From assembly GCA_028716365.1 (NCBI GenBank), contig JAQUPZ010000010.1:62001-126000 (forward strand): a stretch of 64,000 nt of DNA, read 5' to 3'. Below are positions 4,386-42,658 of this stretch, in pieces. Source of the stretch: Kiritimatiellia bacterium. Lineage in GTDB: Bacteria; Verrucomicrobiota; Kiritimatiellia; UBA8416; YA12-FULL-48-11. The notes under the pieces are model-generated. The model had not been told where the DNA came from. It ran no database searches and saw only the letters and a list, made by a program, of their open reading frames with translations. The first letter of the stretch is position 1; each line of letters starts with the position of its first letter. The translations under genes were made by a program, and so were the position numbers.

Positions 4386-5063
4386 CTATTCTTTTGGTAT
4401 TTCACAAGCAACACACGGATTCATATAGCACATCATATCATCGAAATTATCTTTCTCCACGCATGGCGCAAACAGGTTCGCGCATCCGCCGCAAATAGCT
4501 TTTTCCGGCTGGTTGTATGTGCACCGCAGTTCGCACACGGGACACACGTACATACATCCGCCGCATAACCGGCAGACATCGGACTTGGTATCAAATGGCG
4601 TACCGATACTTCGCTTCTCTCCACGGTTCTGGAAGCCAATGGCCTTGGCCATCATCTGCTCCTCGCACATCCGGACACAGCGCCCGCAGAGGATGCAATC
4701 GTCGTATTCCTGTTTGAAACGCTGGGTACGCACCCCGTATGTCGAGGCAATATCCTGGATGGTCTTTGACTGGGGACACGATGCCAGCAGGAGTTCGATG
4801 ACCATTCTTCGCGCACGTACAACGCGCTTTGAAGATGTGCGGACCTTCAATCCTTCTTCCACCGGATAAGTACAGGATGAGACAAGTTTGGCCTTCTTAC
4901 CTTCGCCGATCTCAACGACACACAACCGGCAGGCACCGTAAGGCGTGAGACCATCCATATGGCACAAAGTCGGTATCGGAAACCCGATGAACTCTGCCGC
5001 TTCGAGAATCGTTGTTCCCTTTTCCACAGAAACGTCCAGTCCGTTGATTTTGAGCGTGATCAT
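4386..5063 (-). CDS. HoxU/NuoG-like 2Fe-2S and 4Fe-4S electron-transfer subunit
   Basis: This soluble protein of 225 residues resembles the N-terminal part of NuoG and HoxU. It has a plant-type 2Fe-2S site (C34, C45, C48, C64) and a ferredoxin-like pair of 4Fe-4S sites (C123-C126-C129-C133 and C164-C167-C170-C174). Eight more cysteines follow in the C-terminal 50 residues (from C177 to C220), which is unusual and could hold a further cluster or zinc. ATG 5061-5063 is chosen because it overlaps the NuoF-GltD stop in an ATGA junction (5060-5063); a longer upstream frame has no such coupling. It probably wires the NuoE/NuoF flavin site to its partner. There is no H-cluster domain, so this is not a hydrogenase large subunit. 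Confidence 0.9.
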   Translation of the reverse strand: MITLKINGLDVSVEKGTTILEAAEFIGFPIPTLCHMDGLTPYGACRLCVVEIGEGKKAKLVSSCTYPVEEGLKVRTSSKRVVRARRMVIELLLASCPQSKTIQDIASTYGVRTQRFKQEYDDCILCGRCVRMCEEQMMAKAIGFQNRGEKRSIGTPFDTKSDVCRLCGGCMYVCPVCELRCTYNQPEKAICGGCANLFAPCVEKDNFDDMMCYMNPCVACEIPKE

Positions 5064-8000
5064 ACTGCTTTCTCCGTCGTCTTGACCGTTTCTTTTTTCC
5101 GGGTGAATTCCAGATCGCATCTCAGGCACCTGCGGGCTTCGCGCAGTGCATCCCCGACCGATACAACCTTTTCAACTTCCGTGAAGTTCTTTTTCCTGGA
5201 CCCTGCAGATATTACGGGTGGAACCAGCCGCGTCACATCCCCGGTTTCCTCGCCGATACCGGGACGGGGTTCCACGAAGACTCTGGGCAAATTAAATTTC
5301 GGCGTTTCCTTGAGTTCCTTACCGCGGAAATGGCGGTCAATGACTCCCGCTGCCTTCTTCCCGGCCGCTATGGCGTCAACCACCGTGTTTGGACCGGTTA
5401 CCAGATCACCAGCGGCAAATACATCCGGACGGCTTGTGACGAAGGTCTCGGTGTCAATCAGCGGTCTTCCTGACTTGTCCAGCTCAATTCCCATTGGAAG
5501 GAGATGCTCGCTGTCAGGGCGTTCACCGATGGCCACGATCAATGTATCCAGGGGAAGTGTAAACTCTGTACCGGGAATGGGCTCAGGTTTACGGCGCCCG
5601 CTGGAATCTACTTCACCGGGTTTATTCCTGATACATTCGATACCGGCAAAGTGCCCTCCCTTGGAACGTATTTTTATCGGCGACACGAAAGTTTCGACTT
5701 TCACGCCTTCCGCCATGGCCTCCGCGACATGAAGAATTCTTACCGGCGAAACCAGTGTCTCCAGTTTTATACCTTCTTCAACGGCCGCATCGACTTCTTC
5801 GGCGTAAGCAGGCATTTCCTGTGATGTCCGGCGGTAAAGAAGGGTGACACTCTTGACGTGTTTCTGGCGGATCGCTACCCTGGCCGCATCGACGGCCGAA
5901 TTGCCGCCGCCAATGATACCAACACGACCATTTGCCAGCTCTTCTCCCCTGAGATTGAATGCTTTGAGGAACTGCATGGAAGGATAGATGCCTTCCATGT
6001 TTTCTCCCTTGAGGTTCAACTTCCAGCTCTTGTGGGCACCTGTCGAGAGGAATACGGCCTTGAAACCTTTCTTGAACAGATCATCTATTGTCATGTCCCT
6101 GCCCAGCATGGTGCTGCATTCGACATGTATATTGCTGTTCATGAGCGACTTGATTTCCCTGCGTACCACTTCGTGAGGCAGACGATATGCCGGAATACAG
6201 CTGACCAGCATGCCCCCTATCTCTTTTTCGGCCTCGAACAGTGTGACTTTATAACCAGACAGTGAAAGGTAGTGAGCCGCAGAAATGCCGGCCGGCCCGG
6301 CCCCAATTACGGCAACAGCCGGCATGGCCTTCTTCTTCCCGGCGGATTTTGCCGGTTTATAGACAGACGGAGCAACACGATCTGTAATGAATCTTTTCAG
6401 CGTGCGTATGGCCACGGGTTCGCCCCCGCTGACACCGAGCTGGCACCTCTGTTCGCACTTGCGGTCGCAGACCCTTGCGCAGATTGACGGGAATGGATTT
6501 GCCTCCCTGATGACCTGGTATGCTTCCCTGTATTTCTTTTTCTCAATGAGAGCGACATATCGCCAAACCTCGGTATCAAGCGGACAGGCAAACTGGCATG
6601 AAGCCCCGACAAGGCTTTTGCATACGAAAGCGTCGCACTTTTTATCCATCACATGCCGCTCGTATTCGTGCTTGAAGTATCGGAGAGTGCTCAGGACAGG
6701 GTTCGACGCAGTCTGTCCGAGGCCACACATGGTCGTATCCTTGACTGCCTCGGCAAGTTCCTTGAGGAGTTCCACCTGTTCAAGTGTAGCCATACCCCTG
6801 GAAATATCGTCGAGGATTTCATACATCCGCTGTGTTCCCTTGCGGCATGTAAAGCATTTGCCGCACGATTCATCCTTCAGAAATTTCATAAAATACCTGG
6901 CAACATCAACCATGCAGGTGTTTCCATCCATCACAATCATGCCGCCGGACCCCATGATGGAACCGGCTTCGGAGAGGCTGTCATAATCGATGGGCAGGTC
7001 GAATTTTTCAGCCGGGATACAGCCGCCTGACGGACCGCCGGTCTGAACGGCCTTTATCCTGGCCTTACCGGCCGGACCTCCGCCTATATCGTACACAATC
7101 TCCTTGATGGAAATACCCATGGGAACTTCAACAAGTCCGGTGTTTTTGATCTTACCAACAAGGCTGAATATCTTGGTACCGGGACTGTTTTTTGTTCCGA
7201 TTGAAGCGAATGTTTCCGCACCGTCTCTGATGATGATCGGGATATTGGCCCATGTTTCCACATTGTTGATAGCGGTTGGTTTACCGTTAACACCCTTTTC
7301 TACGGGAAATGGCGGACGCTGCCTCGGTTCGCCGGTTTTTCCTTCGATTGACCGGATCAGCGATGTTTCTTCGCCGCAGACGAATGCGCCTGCCCCTTTG
7401 ACGATTTCGATATCGAAAGAAAAACCGGTTCCCAGGATATTTTTCCCCAGCAACCCGCATTCACGGGCCTGTTTGAGTGCTATGACAAGGTGTTTGATGG
7501 CAAGTGGATATTCTTTCCTTACGTAAATCACGCCTTCTGTAGCACCGGTTCCACGGGCCCCGATGAGCATTCCCTCAATAATACTGTGCGGATTACCTTC
7601 CAGCACGCTACGATCCATGTACGCGCCAGGATCACCCTCATCAGCATTGCAGACCAGCACCTTGCCATTAATCGCCGGCCTGGAAGCCAGGAATTGCCAT
7701 TTCAAACCGGTTGGAAATCCGCCGCCTCCCCTTCCTCGCAGACCCGATTGCTTGACTTCGTTTACTATCCATTCCGGTTTGTCGCGGGCTAATGCTTTTG
7801 CCAGTGTTGCGTATCCACCTGCCTCGATAAAAGTTTCGAGCTTCGTGGGATCCACTTTTTCGTTCGATGAAAGTACCCGCCTGATCTGCTTGCTGAAAAA
7901 TGGAATATCATCCTGTTTTTCCACCGGCGCCCCTGTTCCCGGAAGTTTGAATAGAAGATCCTGACAGATTTTCCCCTGGGCCACGGCGTTAACAATACGC

Positions 8001-8293
8001 ACCATTTCTTTTGCTCCGACTTCGGGATAGAATGTCCGGTACGGCTCAACAAGCACCGACGGTTCCATCTGACAGAATCCATGGCAACCTGTGATGCGAA
8101 GAGCAACCCTGCCGGCAAGGTTTTTCGCGAGGATTTCGCGCTGGGCAGCATGTATGATCTTCTCTGCACCGCTCGTTAACGCACAGGTACCGGCAGGAAT
8201 TATGATCGTTGGAACCTTTGGACTCCGCTGCTTCTTCAGGTGTCCCTGAAAGTTGTGAAACTCATCTATTGACTTAAATCTGATCATAAACAA
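5060..8293 (-). CDS. NuoF/HydB-GltD fusion: NAD(P)H flavin and Fe-S oxidoreductase
   Basis: This 1077-residue fusion has four parts. First is a thioredoxin-like 2Fe-2S domain (C37, C70, C74). Next comes the NuoF/HydB FMN-NADH domain with GRGGGGFP (187-194) and NADEGDPGAY (216-225), then its 4Fe-4S site C477, C480, C483, C523. From about residue 555 to the end is a GltD/NfnB-like module. Its N-terminal cysteines are C566, C570, C605, C609, C613 and C617, followed by FAD (GAGPAG, 664-669) and NADPH (GGGNSAVDAAR, 795-805) sites. In HydB the C-terminus is normally a ferredoxin domain, so here GltD replaces it. The enzyme could move electrons between NADH, NADPH and ferredoxin. The start is TTG 8293 after AGGAATAG, or ATG 8287 two codons later. 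Confidence 0.9.
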   Translation of the reverse strand: MFMIRFKSIDEFHNFQGHLKKQRSPKVPTIIIPAGTCALTSGAEKIIHAAQREILAKNLAGRVALRITGCHGFCQMEPSVLVEPYRTFYPEVGAKEMVRIVNAVAQGKICQDLLFKLPGTGAPVEKQDDIPFFSKQIRRVLSSNEKVDPTKLETFIEAGGYATLAKALARDKPEWIVNEVKQSGLRGRGGGGFPTGLKWQFLASRPAINGKVLVCNADEGDPGAYMDRSVLEGNPHSIIEGMLIGARGTGATEGVIYVRKEYPLAIKHLVIALKQARECGLLGKNILGTGFSFDIEIVKGAGAFVCGEETSLIRSIEGKTGEPRQRPPFPVEKGVNGKPTAINNVETWANIPIIIRDGAETFASIGTKNSPGTKIFSLVGKIKNTGLVEVPMGISIKEIVYDIGGGPAGKARIKAVQTGGPSGGCIPAEKFDLPIDYDSLSEAGSIMGSGGMIVMDGNTCMVDVARYFMKFLKDESCGKCFTCRKGTQRMYEILDDISRGMATLEQVELLKELAEAVKDTTMCGLGQTASNPVLSTLRYFKHEYERHVMDKKCDAFVCKSLVGASCQFACPLDTEVWRYVALIEKKKYREAYQVIREANPFPSICARVCDRKCEQRCQLGVSGGEPVAIRTLKRFITDRVAPSVYKPAKSAGKKKAMPAVAVIGAGPAGISAAHYLSLSGYKVTLFEAEKEIGGMLVSCIPAYRLPHEVVRREIKSLMNSNIHVECSTMLGRDMTIDDLFKKGFKAVFLSTGAHKSWKLNLKGENMEGIYPSMQFLKAFNLRGEELANGRVGIIGGGNSAVDAARVAIRQKHVKSVTLLYRRTSQEMPAYAEEVDAAVEEGIKLETLVSPVRILHVAEAMAEGVKVETFVSPIKIRSKGGHFAGIECIRNKPGEVDSSGRRKPEPIPGTEFTLPLDTLIVAIGERPDSEHLLPMGIELDKSGRPLIDTETFVTSRPDVFAAGDLVTGPNTVVDAIAAGKKAAGVIDRHFRGKELKETPKFNLPRVFVEPRPGIGEETGDVTRLVPPVISAGSRKKNFTEVEKVVSVGDALREARRCLRCDLEFTRKKETVKTTEKAV

Positions 8294-8324
8294 AACCGCT
8301 ATTCCTGTTCGGCAGTTCTTTCCT

Positions 8325-9251
8325 TTATACCTGCGATTTTACGGCATCCAGTTCCAGCCTGCATCCATCGCATCCCCGTCTTTCACATATCTGAAGGAGG
8401 GCTCCTTCCCCAATGCGTATTCCAGCCATGGTTGCTTCGCACTCAGTGCACAGGGTGGTACCGGCAATTCGTGCTTTGCAATGTGGACAGAAAAAAGCAA
8501 CCGATTCACCCACCGGCAACTCATGTTCACTTTCAAAACCCCGACTGCCATACAGGGAAACCAGCCGAAGCCAGCCCGACTTCTCGCCAGCAGAAATATC
8601 AACCCGGATTGATGGATATCCTTCAATGATATTACCCGCATCCATGAGGCTGTGATGACACTGGGGACAGCTTGCCTCAACAGGAAATGCAAATTCGCGC
8701 TCGAGCATCTTTTCATCGGGAAACCCGTTTCTGGCTTCTTCAATCAACTTCTTTATTCCTGCTGTCTTGACTTTCGAGAAATAGTGTCCATCGATCACTA
8801 CAACAGGTCCCAGCGCGCAGGCCCCAAGACAATTCACAGTTTCCAGTGTAAAATTCCTATCTGGAGTTGTTTCCGAAGCCTTGATTCCCAGTTGTTGTTC
8901 AAGTTCCTCGACAATTCTTGGTGCGGCCCGGACATGACATGCTGTGCCGAGGCAGGCTGTGACAAGATGTTTGCCCCGTGGATGCAGTGTGAACGAACGG
9001 TAGAATGTCGCTACTCCGTAGATATCCACCAGGGAACGGCCTGTTGCATTACTCAGAATCCTGAGGGCGTTTTCCGGAAGATAACCGTACTTCTGCTGGA
9101 TCCCCTCGAGCATGGCAATAAGACCACCGCGGGCACCATCATGTTTCCGCACTATGGCCAGTATATCGGCCTCTTTAACATCTTCCTCTGTGCAATTATC
9201 GGGCTCATCTGAAATAACGGTTCTTTTTTTCTTCTTACCGGTACTCTTCAC
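8325..9251 (-). CDS. NuoE/HydC-like 2Fe-2S subunit with zinc-ribbon C-terminal extension
   Basis: The first ~165 residues are a NuoE/HydC thioredoxin-like 2Fe-2S subunit, with the cluster motif CLGTAC then CLGAC and the helical start found in NADH-oxidising complexes. A further ~140 residues hold repeated metal-site motifs CPQCH, CPHC, CTEC and CERRGCDGC, which look like two or three zinc ribbons and are not part of ordinary NuoE (about 160-180 residues). The chosen start is GTG 9251, nine bases after a strong GGAGGAG. An ATG 12 codons earlier gives a 53-bp overlap with the Cys-rich gene, whereas GTG leaves 17 bp. The gap to the NuoF fusion is 31 bp. It should form the bifurcating core with the NuoF part of the next gene. 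Confidence 0.88.
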   Translation of the reverse strand: MKSTGKKKKRTVISDEPDNCTEEDVKEADILAIVRKHDGARGGLIAMLEGIQQKYGYLPENALRILSNATGRSLVDIYGVATFYRSFTLHPRGKHLVTACLGTACHVRAAPRIVEELEQQLGIKASETTPDRNFTLETVNCLGACALGPVVVIDGHYFSKVKTAGIKKLIEEARNGFPDEKMLEREFAFPVEASCPQCHHSLMDAGNIIEGYPSIRVDISAGEKSGWLRLVSLYGSRGFESEHELPVGESVAFFCPHCKARIAGTTLCTECEATMAGIRIGEGALLQICERRGCDGCRLELDAVKSQV

Positions 9252-9570
9252 AATGCCATACTCCTCCTTCCATCTTTGGAAGGTCACATACTGAACGGAC
9301 TGCGCAGTTGGAGCAAAGTCCGCCGATATCTTTTCCCCTGGTTGTCGCTTTTCGTGCAGTCTGCCGCATGTGTTTTATCTTCATCTTTCCCATGTCAAAT
9401 TCTTCGCAGTCGAGTACGGGTTTTGATCTATCTCCCGGATACCGGCATGTTTCTGCACGACAGCAATTCCGGCATAATCCGTGGAGCCGGGATTCTTCTT
9501 TTGTATACTTATTCCGACTTGCCTTCAATGATCGGGCAATGCCTGACGAAGCAATCCTTCTGTGTTTCAT
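9235..9570 (-). CDS. small cysteine-rich protein with a duplicated motif, first gene of the redox operon
   Basis: A basic protein of 111 residues whose cysteines fall in two copies of one motif: GLCRNC..ETC..P..V.DCEEF and GLCSNC..SVC.LP..VWHCEEY. Each copy offers four cysteines, so each could bind zinc or an Fe-S cluster. ATG 9568-9570 sits four bases after GGGAGG; a longer in-frame start lacks this site. The 3' end overlaps the NuoE-like gene, pointing to translational coupling. It lies directly behind the sigma-54 promoter at 9640-9655, so it is the first gene of the operon. I do not recognise a named family. A chaperone, assembly or electron-carrier role for the complex is possible. Confidence 0.8.
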   Translation of the reverse strand: MKHRRIASSGIARSLKASRNKYTKEESRLHGLCRNCCRAETCRYPGDRSKPVLDCEEFDMGKMKIKHMRQTARKATTRGKDIGGLCSNCAVRSVCDLPKMEGGVWHCEEYR

Positions 9571-9810: not shown

Positions 9811-9840
9811 AGAACCGGTGGGGAGAATTGCCCCGCTTCT
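9811..9840 (-). terminator. hairpin at the end of the response-regulator gene
   Basis: GGGG (9820-9823) pairs with CCCC (9831-9834), flanked by AGAA (9811-9814) and TTCT (9837-9840). It overlaps the regulator stop. There is no T-run, so termination is only possible. Confidence 0.3.
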
Positions 9841-11182
9841 ATTTTGCCGGTATAGCCTTCAATTTCTCCCTGAGGGTCTTTCTGTCGATCCCGAGGATTC
9901 GTGCTGCCTTCGCTTTATTTCCACCGGTACTTGAAAGAACGTTAGATATATACTCTGCTTCCACCTCTGTAAGCGTTCGTGTTAAAGATTCTTTATGTGG
10001 AACTGTAAAACGCATAAACGAAGGCAGGTCGGAGACATCTACAGTGTCGCTGTCCGACATGACGACAATGCGCTGGATGATATTCTCGAGTTCCCTGACA
10101 TTTCCGGGCCAGGCATAATTGGTGAGTGATGCCAGGGCCCTGTCTGTGAATCGTATTTCGCGTTTTCCGAATTCGCTGGCGAATTTCGATTTAAAATAAT
10201 TCACGAGAAGGAGTACGTCATCTTCCCTTTTTCTCAGGGGCGGGACTTCAATGGAAATGACATTCAGCCGGAAAAAGAGATCTTCACGGAATATACCTCT
10301 CCTGGTGAGCCCGGTGAGGTCCTTGTTTGTCGCGGCAATAATTCGCACGTCCACCTTCTGAGTACGCGTTGCGCCAACCATGCAGATTGCCTTGTCCTGA
10401 AGCGCGCGAAGGAGCTTTACCTGCATTGCCGGGCTGGTTTCTGAAATTTCGTCCAGAAAAATAGTCCCGCCTTCGGCTGTCTGAAAAAATCCCGCCCGAG
10501 ACTCCGTTGCACCTGTGAAGGCACCCCTGACATGGCCGAACAGTTCGCTTTCGAGCAGACCTTCCGGGATGCCGCCGCAATTGACCGGCACGAAAGGAGC
10601 CGGCGCCCGCCTGCTCGAATAATGAATGGCACGGGCCACGAGTTCCTTGCCTGTGCCGCTCTCACCGGTAATCAGAACTGTTGCCAGGGTGGAGGCCGCC
10701 TTGTCCACGGCGATTGCCACCTTCTTCATGACCTCCGAGTTGCCGATTAGACCGTGTTTTGAAGGCAGGCTTTCGCCCGGCCGGTACTGTCCTGTGCGAC
10801 GCATGTGCAGTTTGTCGAGCGCACGCTGCACGGCGGCGGACAACTCGCCGTCTGTAAAAGGCTTCGCAAGATACTCTTCCGCGCCGGTCTTCACCGCTTC
10901 GACCGCGCCTTCCACGGAGGCGTAACCGGTAATCATCATCACCTCCGTGTTCCTGTGGTTCTCGCGGATATGCCGTATCAGGTCGAGCCCCGAAGTACCG
11001 GGCATCTTGAGATCGGTAACAACAAGGTCCACAGCCGCCGAATCGAGAATTTTCAGGGCCTCAGTTACGGACCGTGCAGTGGTCACCTGGATTTTCTTCG
11101 AACTCAGATTCCTGCGGATTATCTCCAGGGTATCGGGACAGTCATCCACAGCGAGTATATGATCTTTCTTACTCTGCGGCAT
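9839..11182 (-). CDS. NtrC-family sigma-54 response regulator
   Basis: This 447-residue protein has three domains. A receiver (residues 8-120) carries the phosphoacceptor D57 and acidic pair D13-D14. An AAA+ sigma-54 activator domain has Walker A GESGTGKE (173-180), the sigma-54 contact loop GAFTGA (220-225) and Walker B IFLDE (241-245). A Fis-type helix-turn-helix forms the last ~45 residues (NKAKAARILGIDRKTLREKL). The intact GAFTGA loop shows it should activate sigma-54 promoters. Its gene overlaps the histidine kinase by 14 bp and is followed by the sigma-54 promoter of the redox operon, which makes that operon the first candidate target. The sigma-54 site at 12575-12590 is a second one. 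Confidence 0.95.
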   Translation of the reverse strand: MPQSKKDHILAVDDCPDTLEIIRRNLSSKKIQVTTARSVTEALKILDSAAVDLVVTDLKMPGTSGLDLIRHIRENHRNTEVMMITGYASVEGAVEAVKTGAEEYLAKPFTDGELSAAVQRALDKLHMRRTGQYRPGESLPSKHGLIGNSEVMKKVAIAVDKAASTLATVLITGESGTGKELVARAIHYSSRRAPAPFVPVNCGGIPEGLLESELFGHVRGAFTGATESRAGFFQTAEGGTIFLDEISETSPAMQVKLLRALQDKAICMVGATRTQKVDVRIIAATNKDLTGLTRRGIFREDLFFRLNVISIEVPPLRKREDDVLLLVNYFKSKFASEFGKREIRFTDRALASLTNYAWPGNVRELENIIQRIVVMSDSDTVDVSDLPSFMRFTVPHKESLTRTLTEVEAEYISNVLSSTGGNKAKAARILGIDRKTLREKLKAIPAK

Positions 11183-12359
11183 TTTGCCTTTTCTCCTTTT
11201 CGGATTTATTTTTCACGACGAGGGGAAACACTACTTCAAAACGAGTTCCAATTCCAAGCTTGCTATCCACTTTTATTTTGCCGCTGTGCGCAGAGACAAT
11301 GCGATTGACTATTGCCAGGCCCAATCCCGTACCTTCTTCCGGATTTTTCAGGGTGAAAAAAGGGTCGAATATGTGTTTCAGGTTCTGACTTTCAATTCCA
11401 GTCCCTGTGTCTTTAACTATCAGGGAAACAGTGTTACGGCTGCGTATTGTAGTAATGGTGATTTTCCCGCCATGCGGCATTGCCTGTTCTGCATTGACAA
11501 TCAGGTTAACGAGCACCTGGTTCATTTGTGTCGAATCTGCAATTATATCAGGCAGGTTCCGGGCAAGATTTCTTACAATCTTAACGCCTAACCTCTTACA
11601 TCTGTTTTCAAGGAAATCAAGGCCTTCATCAATCAGCCGGTTCAGGTTTGTCAGGGACTTCTGGAGCGGGGTTTGACGGGAAAGCATACGCATCTTTCGA
11701 ACAATCTCCCTGGCATTAAGGGATGCGGTAATTATCTTATCGAGGTCCCTTGCAGCCGAATCCGGAAGTTGCGGATTTTTCCTGATAAGCTGCGCGAATC
11801 CAAGAATGCCTTCCAGTGGTTCGTTCATTTCATGCGCAATACCAGCGGCAAGCAGACCCATTGTGGCCAGACGGTCAGCCCGTCTCAATTGATCGGAGAA
11901 CTCCTCTTTTTCGTGTTCAAGGTTCTTGCGTTCCACGACGAGAGAAAGTTCGCGAGCTACCGCATCTATCAGGTTCCGTTCCTCCCTGAGAAAGGGCCCT
12001 TCATCAAGATTGGGTTTCTGTTTTGAATAAGCCACCTCGACTGTTCCGCGTTTCCCGCCCTTGATGATTATTCCCGCAGTCTGCCGGAAACGTGCCTTCG
12101 TAAATCCGGGGGTGGAGAACAGGTGTCCGTCGATGGATATTCCTGCCGAAGCGATGTCCGGATAAAGCCAGCTTGGCGGCAGAACTTCGACAACTTCCTG
12201 AAGAATATTTTTGAGGGATTTTCCCGGTTCCGCAACTATACGCGCTATTCCATAGAGACACGAGAGTTCCTTTACACGTTCCCGCAGTTCTACCTGCGTT
12301 TGCTTTTGAGCTGCCGTGTTTCTGCCGGTTTTGCGCGGGGATTTCCTTCTAACAGTCAT
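11169..12359 (-). CDS. soluble sensor histidine kinase, partner of the NtrC-like regulator
   Basis: A cytoplasmic kinase of 396 residues from ATG 12357-12359. The N-terminal ~140 residues form a GAF-like sensory region, followed by a HisKA dimerisation helix with the phosphorylated histidine H176 in AGIAHEMNEP. The HATPase domain carries N (NLIVNAEQAM), G1 (DTGTGI), F (FDPFFT) and G2 (GTGLGLAIV) boxes. There are no membrane helices, so the signal is probably internal, for example redox state or a small metabolite. An upstream in-frame start adds 36 residues with no obvious domain; the ribosome site is weak in both cases. It overlaps the response regulator by 14 bp, so the two are a translationally coupled pair. 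Confidence 0.93.
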   Translation of the reverse strand: MTVRRKSPRKTGRNTAAQKQTQVELRERVKELSCLYGIARIVAEPGKSLKNILQEVVEVLPPSWLYPDIASAGISIDGHLFSTPGFTKARFRQTAGIIIKGGKRGTVEVAYSKQKPNLDEGPFLREERNLIDAVARELSLVVERKNLEHEKEEFSDQLRRADRLATMGLLAAGIAHEMNEPLEGILGFAQLIRKNPQLPDSAARDLDKIITASLNAREIVRKMRMLSRQTPLQKSLTNLNRLIDEGLDFLENRCKRLGVKIVRNLARNLPDIIADSTQMNQVLVNLIVNAEQAMPHGGKITITTIRSRNTVSLIVKDTGTGIESQNLKHIFDPFFTLKNPEEGTGLGLAIVNRIVSAHSGKIKVDSKLGIGTRFEVVFPLVVKNKSEKEKRQNAAE

Positions 12360-12574
12360 AATGTGGGCCCTATATAACGAAAGCGGTCCTGAAAATGCAA
12401 TATGTCTCGTATCCTGGTAAAGTGGATAATTGGCCGCTGGTGACCAGCAATGTGTCCATTTCAGCAATACAGGCGAGACACATGATACAGAAACTTCGGT
12501 ATCCCAATAATGGAATTCTCAAAAAACACTGATATTCCGCAGTAATTCCGCGAAAGGAGAACTTCAGGCGATCT

Positions 12575-12590
12575 TGGCACATTCAATGCT
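12575..12590 (+). promoter_or_regulatory. sigma-54 (-24/-12) promoter of the candidate small RNA
   Basis: TGGCACATTCAATGCT fits TGGCAC-N5-TTGCW with one mismatch and the required GG-N10-GC spacing. It has the same TGGCAC-N5-ATGCTTT form as the pilin promoter at 42224. The predicted start is near 12599-12602. Confidence 0.6.
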
Positions 12591-12600
12591 TTATACAAGT

Positions 12601-12710
12601 CGGCCCCTGGCTGGATCGAAAATAGAGGACCACGACCTAAAAGGCGGAATAAAGATTTTATATCTTAAAGAGTCCATCGAAAACTTTCTGGCCAACGGGC
12701 TTCTTTTTTT
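12601..12710 (+). ncRNA. candidate sigma-54-dependent small RNA ending in an intrinsic terminator
   Basis: Transcription from the sigma-54 site should begin at about 12601. Two bases later starts a long-range stem: GCCC (12603-12606) with GGGC (12697-12700), then TGGCTGG (12608-12614) with CTGGCCA (12688-12694), 11 pairs including two G-U. It is followed directly by TTCTTTTTTT (12701-12710). Inside are GGAC (12627-12630)/GTCC (12672-12675) and AAGAT (12652-12656)/ATCTT (12662-12666). The span contains no ATG, and no ORF follows closely. The next gene starts at 12800 and has its own promoter-like sequence. Confidence 0.45.
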
Positions 12711-12728
12711 ACCTGATTAACCTGCAAG

Positions 12729-12757
12729 TTGGATAATTCTGGTGTGAAAAATAATTA
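12729..12757 (+). promoter_or_regulatory. sigma-70-like promoter of the ThuA-like gene
   Basis: TTGGAT (12729-12734), a 17-base spacer and TAATTA (12752-12757). The expected start is about 12764, upstream of the AAAGGAG ribosome site. Confidence 0.35.
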
Positions 12758-12799
12758 TGGTTATGATTCTCACCTGCTTGGGAAAGGAGATAAAATCGA

Positions 12800-13732
12800 A
12801 TGAAGAAAGTTACTCGTATTGTCATGATAGGCCTGCTGTTTGCAGGTATTGCAGTTGTTGGTAATCTGTCAGCCGCAGATGTGGCAAAAAAGAAAATTGT
12901 TTTCGTGCACGGACCGGAGAGTCATGGCTACGGCGGACACGCATATGGCCCGGCATTCAGGATGCTGGCTCGAATGCTGAACGAGGGTGTACCGGAAGCG
13001 GAATGTGTCGTTATCCAGGGCAATAAGGACCTGGCCGTACTTGATACCGCGGATGCAATTGTGATCGGCAGTGATGGCGGTGGTCTTGTAAGGTCGCTGG
13101 GTAACAGGCTTGAACCTCTCATGCAGAAGGGCGTGGGCCTGGCGTGTATCCATTATACACTTGACCCAAGTGACCCGAAGGCGATCAACCGGTTGATCGA
13201 TTGGATCGGTGGATCTTATGTCCAGCATTGGTCTGTCAACCCGTACTGGGAGGCTGATTTCAAGTCGTTTCCGGATCACCCAGTTTCGCGGGGCCTGAAA
13301 CCATTCAAGGTACAGGACGAATGGTATTATCACATGAAATTTGTCAGCGATATGAAAGGCGTTACTCCCATTCTGGCTGCAGTTCCACCCGAGCGTACCA
13401 GGCAGGGTAAAGACGGACCGCACAGCGGTAATCCTGAAGTACGAAAGAGAACGGGAATGGCCGAAGTGATCGGATGGACCTATGAGCGTCCGAACGGCGG
13501 GCGCGGTTGGGGTTTCACAGGGATGCACGAGCACTGGAACTGGGCGCAGGACAGTTACCGTAAGGCCGTGCTCAATGCCATCGTCTGGATAGCCAGGATC
13601 GAGGTCCCCAGGGACGGCGTGCCATCAACGACACCGACATTGAAAGAAATGGAAGCCGATATCGCGAAGCCGTGTCCATCAACTTTCAACGCCAAATCTA
13701 TCCAGGAGCGGATATCCAAGATGAACCAATGA
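12800..13732 (+). CDS. exported ThuA-like domain protein
   Basis: The 310-residue product starts at an ATG preceded by AAAGGAGAT. Residues 1-26 are a Sec signal peptide (MKKVTRIVMIGLLFAGIAVV, then GNLSA). The rest matches the ThuA-like (trehalose utilisation) fold, a class I glutamine-amidotransferase-like flavodoxin fold, with KIVFVHGPESHGYGGH at the start and the later VGLACIHYT and GWGFTGMHEHWNW segments. ThuA proteins are linked to keto-sugar or glycoside metabolism, often beside Gfo/Idh/MocA oxidoreductases, and the substrate here is unknown. It is transcribed alone, away from the kinase gene. It fits the exported sugar-handling genes to its right. Confidence 0.9.
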   Translation: MKKVTRIVMIGLLFAGIAVVGNLSAADVAKKKIVFVHGPESHGYGGHAYGPAFRMLARMLNEGVPEAECVVIQGNKDLAVLDTADAIVIGSDGGGLVRSLGNRLEPLMQKGVGLACIHYTLDPSDPKAINRLIDWIGGSYVQHWSVNPYWEADFKSFPDHPVSRGLKPFKVQDEWYYHMKFVSDMKGVTPILAAVPPERTRQGKDGPHSGNPEVRKRTGMAEVIGWTYERPNGGRGWGFTGMHEHWNWAQDSYRKAVLNAIVWIARIEVPRDGVPSTTPTLKEMEADIAKPCPSTFNAKSIQERISKMNQ

Positions 13733-42223: not shown

Positions 42224-42239
42224 TGGCACAACTAATGCT
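42224..42239 (+). promoter_or_regulatory. sigma-54 promoter of the pilin gene
   Basis: TGGCACAACTAATGCT matches TGGCAC-N5-TTGCW at all but one position, with the GG-N10-GC spacing. The predicted start is about 42250, a 58-base leader before ATG 42308. The AT-rich ~200 bp upstream holds no gene and could carry regulator sites. Confidence 0.75.
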
Positions 42240-42307: not shown

Positions 42308-42658
42308 ATGAACAAAAAGTTAGGTTTTACGCTGGTAGAAATCATGATTGTGGTTGCAATCATTGGTTTGCTGGCAGCAATTGCGATTCCTTCGTTTGTG
42401 AAGGCTCGTAACACAGCTCAGCAAAACGCATGTATTAACAACCTGAGAATGATTGACTCCGGCAAAGAGCAGGCGGCATTGGCATTTAGATGGGCTGATG
42501 GCTCTACACCAACCACCTCGCTTGTTAATACATACATCAAGGGAACCACTACACCTGAATGTCCCGCTGGTGGTGCTTACACCTACAGTGTGATTGGGAC
42601 AAACCCTCTGTGTAGTATTGTGTCACCGACATCACATAGAATGCCAGTTGGTCTATAA
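42308..42658 (+). CDS. type IV pilin / pseudopilin
   Basis: A short prepilin of 116 residues. The leader MNKKLG is followed by the class III cleavage site and the N-methyl-Phe start FTLVEIMIVVAII, with Glu at position 5 of the mature protein. ATG 42308 is used because GGAG lies eight bases before it; the ATG at 42302 is too close. The C-terminal part is small, with two Cys (PECPAGG and NPLCSIV) that may form a loop, and it ends HRMPVGL. It resembles short pilins and GspG-like proteins of PVC bacteria. A strong terminator follows at 42684. Confidence 0.93.
   Translation: MNKKLGFTLVEIMIVVAIIGLLAAIAIPSFVKARNTAQQNACINNLRMIDSGKEQAALAFRWADGSTPTTSLVNTYIKGTTTPECPAGGAYTYSVIGTNPLCSIVSPTSHRMPVGL

Follow-up and report, generated by a model that had tools for sequence, protein, structure and literature searches.

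Genes and features at the locus

The window, by which we mean the whole stretch of 64,000 nucleotides analysed here, corresponds to C10:62001-126000 of the 5.8 Mb genome (G000) of a Kiritimatiellia bacterium. Pfam domains identify an NtrC-type response regulator on its minus strand (9839-11182; REC, sigma-54 AAA+ and Fis HTH) and, on the same strand, a histidine kinase (11169-12359; HisKA and HATPase_c) that is the divergent neighbour of a putative small RNA gene. Also on this strand, positions 4386-9287 hold an operon of NuoE/F/G-like subunits of an NAD(P)H-linked redox complex, in which the subunit at 5060-8293 seems to carry a fused FAD domain like that of glutamate synthase, a fusion read from the sequence only.

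The RNA gene occupies 12601-12710 on the plus strand, about 110 nt from its predicted start to a terminator T-run, TCTTTTTTT (12702-12710, plus strand), and is supported by a second genomic copy and by a family of relatives found with covariance models. Ahead of it lies a putative sigma-54 (-24/-12) promoter, TGGCACATTCAATGCT, at 12575-12590 on the plus strand, which has one mismatch to the consensus TGGCACN5TTGCW and a counterpart in the family members; transcription is predicted to start 10 bases past this element, at 12600-12601. As an earlier sequence-only reading had noted, there is no ATG within 12601-12710, and the next gene, encoding a ThuA-domain protein by Pfam (12800-13732, plus strand) and lying outside the RNA unit, begins 90 bases past 12710. 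Elsewhere in the window, a sigma-54-like promoter, TGGCACAACTAATGCT (42224-42239), immediately precedes a type IV pilin-like gene (ATG at 42309); a gene for another sigma-54 activator is found about 0.7 kb upstream.

Upstream of the promoters of the 27 family loci described below, GAGAC(A)/(T)GTCTC is the top enriched k-mer (43 occurrences against 16.3 +/- 3.9 in shuffles), outranking a TTGTAAT motif that had been suspected by eye, and GAGAC words often lie at about -120 to -200, upstream of the family promoters. GAGAC is a candidate activator site of the RNA family, although the motif was picked post hoc and is weak for any single site. At the window locus it occurs as GTCTC at 12404-12408, in atatGTCTCgtat (about -197), and in the inverted orientation as GAGAC at 12475-12479, in ggcGAGACacat (about -126).

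Copies, relatives and conserved structure

A BLAST search of G000 with 12540-12800 returned one more strong match, C2:244374-244506, with 78% identity. The match spans promoter to terminator (query 12573-12705) and nothing beyond, and the genes flanking it are unrelated to those of the window copy, giving it the look of a duplicated RNA gene. When 38 relatives were searched with the element by BLAST, this copy in G000 remained the only strong match, and covariance models were needed to extend the search. Model R1, built from the two own RNAs with the promoter excluded and searched over 346 genomes of the class, recovered one more copy in G000, the third, along with homologues from other families; model R2, built from ten sequences, led to 27 accepted members in 16 of the 346 genomes, with four copies in G000 itself (window, C2:244402, C2:695055 and C2:160924). 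The extent of the own-genome match and the size of the family both favour the discrete small RNA that had been proposed from the single locus.

Beyond the class, a phylum-wide genome sample added no real member and viral contigs gave no match to the family. A GTDB-wide pattern scan produced 22 matches, and its members came only from MAGs named Lentisphaerae/Lentisphaerota, Lentisphaerales, Kiritimatiellae, Verrucomicrobia, PVC group or Victivallis. Scan matches in Chloroflexota, Prevotella, Zoogloea and others had model scores below membership, and one in Prevotellaceae (L055) reached 18.7 bits only, elsewhere in its locus. Several model hits without a promoter were rejected as false positives (L023 in G061, and L047-L049 in another family of the phylum) or dropped (L033 in G041 and L045 in G010c). 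Matches on the antisense strand (L025:1493-1606, minus; L021:1510-1592, plus; L020:1492-1575, minus) were set aside, since the rod is nearly palindromic and the antisense strand of some members consequently scores against the model. Three low-scoring members (L031, L034 and L035, from G023, G016 and G025a, respectively) have the promoter and the rod, and the conserved internal loop is absent from them; they perhaps represent a subfamily with another partner.

The covariance models contained no promoter information, and promoters were scored separately. Counted from the model start, 26 of the 27 members have a -24/-12 element of at least 8/11 at -26 to -34 (26 of 29 if L033 and L045 are counted, their omission for want of a promoter slightly favouring the figure), compared with 2.8% of places chosen at random within these loci, and at a threshold of at least 9/11 the comparison is 23 members against 0.5%. 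The remaining member, L030, has a good sigma-54 element, TGGCACGCCACCTGCG, at -61. The suggestion of sigma-54-driven expression made for the window copy thus extends, as a prediction, to nearly the whole family. Promoter spacing sets the predicted transcription start at the foot of the stem, and therefore the rod would constitute the whole transcript. G000 contains 53 TGGCAYN6TGCW sites, compared with 27 matches to the reversed pattern, and encodes about 12 sigma-54 activators, indicating a sizeable predicted sigma-54 regulon in which four sites would serve the RNA family. When RNAs closed end to end were sought at 30 of these 53 sites, the family members and three others (L077, L097 and L099) were found, these three being approximately the number predicted by the 8% control rate.

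The family shares an architecture of a P1 and P2 terminator stem, P3, a 7x7 internal loop, P4 and an apical part of variable size, all of which can be placed on the plus strand of the window copy. In its minimum free energy fold, 12602-12606 pairs with 12697-12701 (P1, also seen in the family alignment) and 12608-12614 with 12688-12694 (P2), directly before TCTTTTTTT, so that the 3' strands of P2 and P1 (12688-12701 in fold and alignment) form the 3' arm of the terminator. The 5' strand of P2, TGGCTGG, contains covarying pairs and a conserved tandem U-G/G-U, of which the G-U pair is kept in 27/27 members and the adjacent U-G in 19/27. P3 (12615-12619 with 12683-12687) is poorly paired in the window copy and covaries strongly in relatives, its variants including UCCGG/CCGGA, GCAGG/CCUGC, UCAGA/UCUGA and UGCGG/CCGCA. 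The alignments then place the purine-rich 7x7 internal loop, with AAATAGA at 12620-12626 and ATCGAAA at 12676-12682 here and UANGAGA over AANGAAA in most members, and it is this loop that holds the most conserved unpaired residues of the family; a kink-turn is a conceivable reading of it. P4 (GGAC/GUCC; 12627-12630 with 12672-12675) is seen in the alignment and through covariation, whereas the apical domain is variable, the hairpin AAGAT...ATCTT that it folds into here (12652-12666) being common to the C2:244402 copy only. Many members, though not every one, have a T-run after the closing stem. A small-protein reading was rejected, there being no conserved reading frame across the family members and no ATG in the window copy.

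Covariation, which the sequence-only reading had named among its checks, gives clear support to this structure. Among the 27 members, 79 cells are changed on both sides of a pair, compared with a maximum of 45 in 500 shuffles. For the 17 non-training members, aligned by a model that leans towards its own structure, 90.1% of cells pair and 48 are doubly changed, against maxima of 27 in 500 shuffles and 9 in slid versions; for the ten training sequences 92% of cells pair and 27 are doubly changed, where shuffles give 8.6 and slid versions 0-5. Folded singly, seven distant members reach z scores of -4.1 to -6.3, and the two closest own copies fold more weakly (-1.9 for the window, -2.2 for C2). 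The window copy alone (-29.8 kcal/mol; 7/200 shuffles equally good) is marginally better than chance. The expectation of an end-to-end fold acting as a terminator was therefore sound as regards the pairing of the ends before the T-run and the covarying family stem, and fold prediction for 12601-12710 fell short in strength, with a z of only -1.94. That score, and the finding that promoter-like sites are about as frequent in the window as expected (40 sites with at most two mismatches to the consensus, compared with 33 from shuffles), could be read as a chance promoter-like site beside an ordinary terminator hairpin. However, promoter, fold and terminator co-occur independently in 27 loci, and with this reading refuted by the comparative data we regard its probability as negligible. 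At the sequence level, comparison thus defines the promoter, boundaries and structure of a multi-copy RNA family, and the gene at 12601-12710 is apparently both real and undescribed.

Genomic surroundings of the family members

In five genomes (G002, G010, G017, G022 and G033) one orthologous NtrC-type response regulator precedes the RNA gene, with gaps of 140-254 nt (about 450 nt in G022); scores to the query are 470-656 bits for these regulators and no higher than 353 for the next paralog. What comes after the RNA in G002, G010 and G033 is a gene for a purine nucleoside phosphorylase (named, like the further neighbours below, from sequence). In G000, G003 and G009 the phosphorylase gene comes immediately after this regulator, the RNA being absent between them, and therefore the RNA gene seems to have been added to, or lost from, this pair. 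At another locus, L140 (G014:C62), a sigma-54 site, TGGCACAGCCGCTGCT, is located about 187 nt past the end of the orthologous regulator gene and is followed by an end-closed sequence, GCCGAGGG ... CCCTCGGCATTTTTT, with no match to the model; this may be a diverged sigma-54 RNA, or an unrelated one, that occupies the same position.

Other sigma-54 activators adjoin members G001b, G025b and G332. Further neighbours are a topoisomerase VI subunit B-like gene (G007, G033a and G332), an ankyrin/MORN-repeat gene (C2:695055, G033a and G023) and a mutY-like gene (G016 and G025a). Vicinity to sigma-54 activators, in a subset of loci, is the only recurring neighbour theme. The earlier idea that the RNA tunes mRNAs of the neighbouring redox operon is not borne out by these surroundings, as copies elsewhere in G000 and those in relatives stand beside unrelated genes.

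At many loci, that of the window included, the gene that follows shares the strand of the RNA and lies 18-200 nt downstream, an arrangement that would suit a sigma-54-driven 5' leader, that is, an attenuator or riboswitch-like terminator controlling the downstream gene (here that for the ThuA-domain protein). Yet the downstream genes differ among loci and are convergent at C2:160924, G002a, G022b, G332 and G014b, and the conserved pairing is the terminator itself, with no conserved alternative pairing seen, making such a leader very improbable. Since the downstream gene is not constant and is convergent at several loci, we infer instead that the RNA acts in trans.

Proposed action and comparison with known systems

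We propose a model in which an enhancer-binding regulator of the NtrC type, with a sensor kinase as its probable source of phosphorylation, would bind about 120-200 bp upstream and open the -24/-12 promoter. Transcription would then start at the stem foot and the full transcript would fold into a rod, its closing helix and U-run serving as the terminator, to yield a discrete RNA of about 80-125 nt acting in trans. Sigma-54 promoters need NtrC-type activators, and this need, together with the position of the regulators, is what points to activation of this kind; for the window copy, position makes the regulator at 9839-11182 a possible activator. Considered as a whole, a sigma-54-driven trans-acting sRNA is very probably what the locus encodes, and the family as such is probably a widespread on-demand gene regulator.

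It seems most likely that the constant core (the P1-P3 rod, the 7x7 internal loop and P4) binds a protein, and that the variable apical part sets copy-specific targets. Because the most conserved unpaired residues are found in the internal loop, this is where we would place the protein, a localisation for which we consider the case evenly balanced. Hfq (PF17209) was found in none of nine member genomes, six of which are at least 90% complete, and CsrA (PF02599) in none of the same nine, with positive controls in both searches; the classical routes are therefore unlikely. More tentatively, the 7x7 loop could be the docking site of a new RNA-binding protein, and the RNA a class-wide regulator in Lentisphaerae/Kiritimatiellae-type bacteria, providing sigma-54 two-component systems with an RNA output that uses neither Hfq nor CsrA. 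Very little has been described of regulatory RNAs in this branch of the PVC bacteria. With its predicted switchable promoter, its strongly covarying stem, its multiple copies per genome and one recurring orthologous regulator, the family is directly testable, and its core motif suggests an RNA-binding protein other than Hfq or CsrA.

Qrr sRNAs base-pair with mRNAs, assisted by Hfq, and the architecture of a rod with a 7x7 loop is not known among them. A Qrr-like mode of action would consist mainly of antisense pairing to mRNAs via the apical loops, leaving the rod as a stabiliser and terminator only. The apical domain does vary among copies and is the main unpaired part, the multi-copy paralogs resemble Qrr1-5, small size is another likeness, and the sigma-54 promoter and the proposed NtrC-type activator with its candidate upstream sites recall Qrr (PMC10162802), for which the activator sites in Vibrio (LuxO/sigma-54) are at about -60 to -175 (PMC10162802). 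Set against this are the missing Hfq in the nine genomes and the concentration of the most conserved unpaired residues in the internal loop rather than in a seed, and we hold antisense pairing as the main mode to be a serious, if on balance doubtful, possibility; a protein-binding core is the reading that we prefer.

Pseudomonas CrcZ and CrcY are likewise sigma-54-dependent, are activated by the NtrC-type CbrB, have several paralogs per genome and sequester the catabolite-repression protein Crc (PMC6296734). Our family is similar in its sigma-54 promoters, its paralogs and the NtrC-type regulator near five of its loci, and no sequence relation to CrcZ/CrcY was seen; it differs in being about 80-125 nt long, in folding as one closed rod that has a single core motif, and in having hosts without Hfq among those tested. 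The adjoining NtrC-type regulator, as with CbrB and CrcZ (PMC6296734), and the conserved purine-rich core with AGAGG would fit an RNA that titrates a protein in the manner of RsmZ or CrcZ, acting on CsrA or on Crc/Hfq. Nevertheless, the nine member genomes have no homologue of CsrA or Hfq, each RNA has one core motif and not many repeats, and the single GGA lies within a helix and is not invariant, GGGC taking its place in several members, so that titration of this kind appears very unlikely. Working like CrcZ/CrcY or Qrr would in any case not make the family a member of either, and binding of a different protein by the core continues to be our favoured explanation.

Among other structured RNAs, 6S RNA (RF00013) is comparable as a long rod-like RNA with internal loops; G000 has a separate 6S RNA (C1:1027057-1027236, 80.2 bits to RF00013), and the window RNA had no match to that family. 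Acido-Lenti-1 (RF01687), reported as a structured RNA in Acidobacteria and Lentisphaerae and without known function (PMC2864571), gave no match to the family RNAs at the thresholds used. Rfam 15 as a whole contained no family match (with E limits of 10 for the window and C2 copies and of 1 for 20 member loci), and in the open literature on sigma-54 with Lentisphaerae small RNAs or Kiritimatiellae we found no earlier description. GlmY/GlmZ and NrsZ are further sigma-54-dependent trans-acting sRNAs, with structures, hosts and partners that differ from those of the family. The RNA family thus appears to be new, but of a known type, that of the sigma-54-dependent sRNAs.
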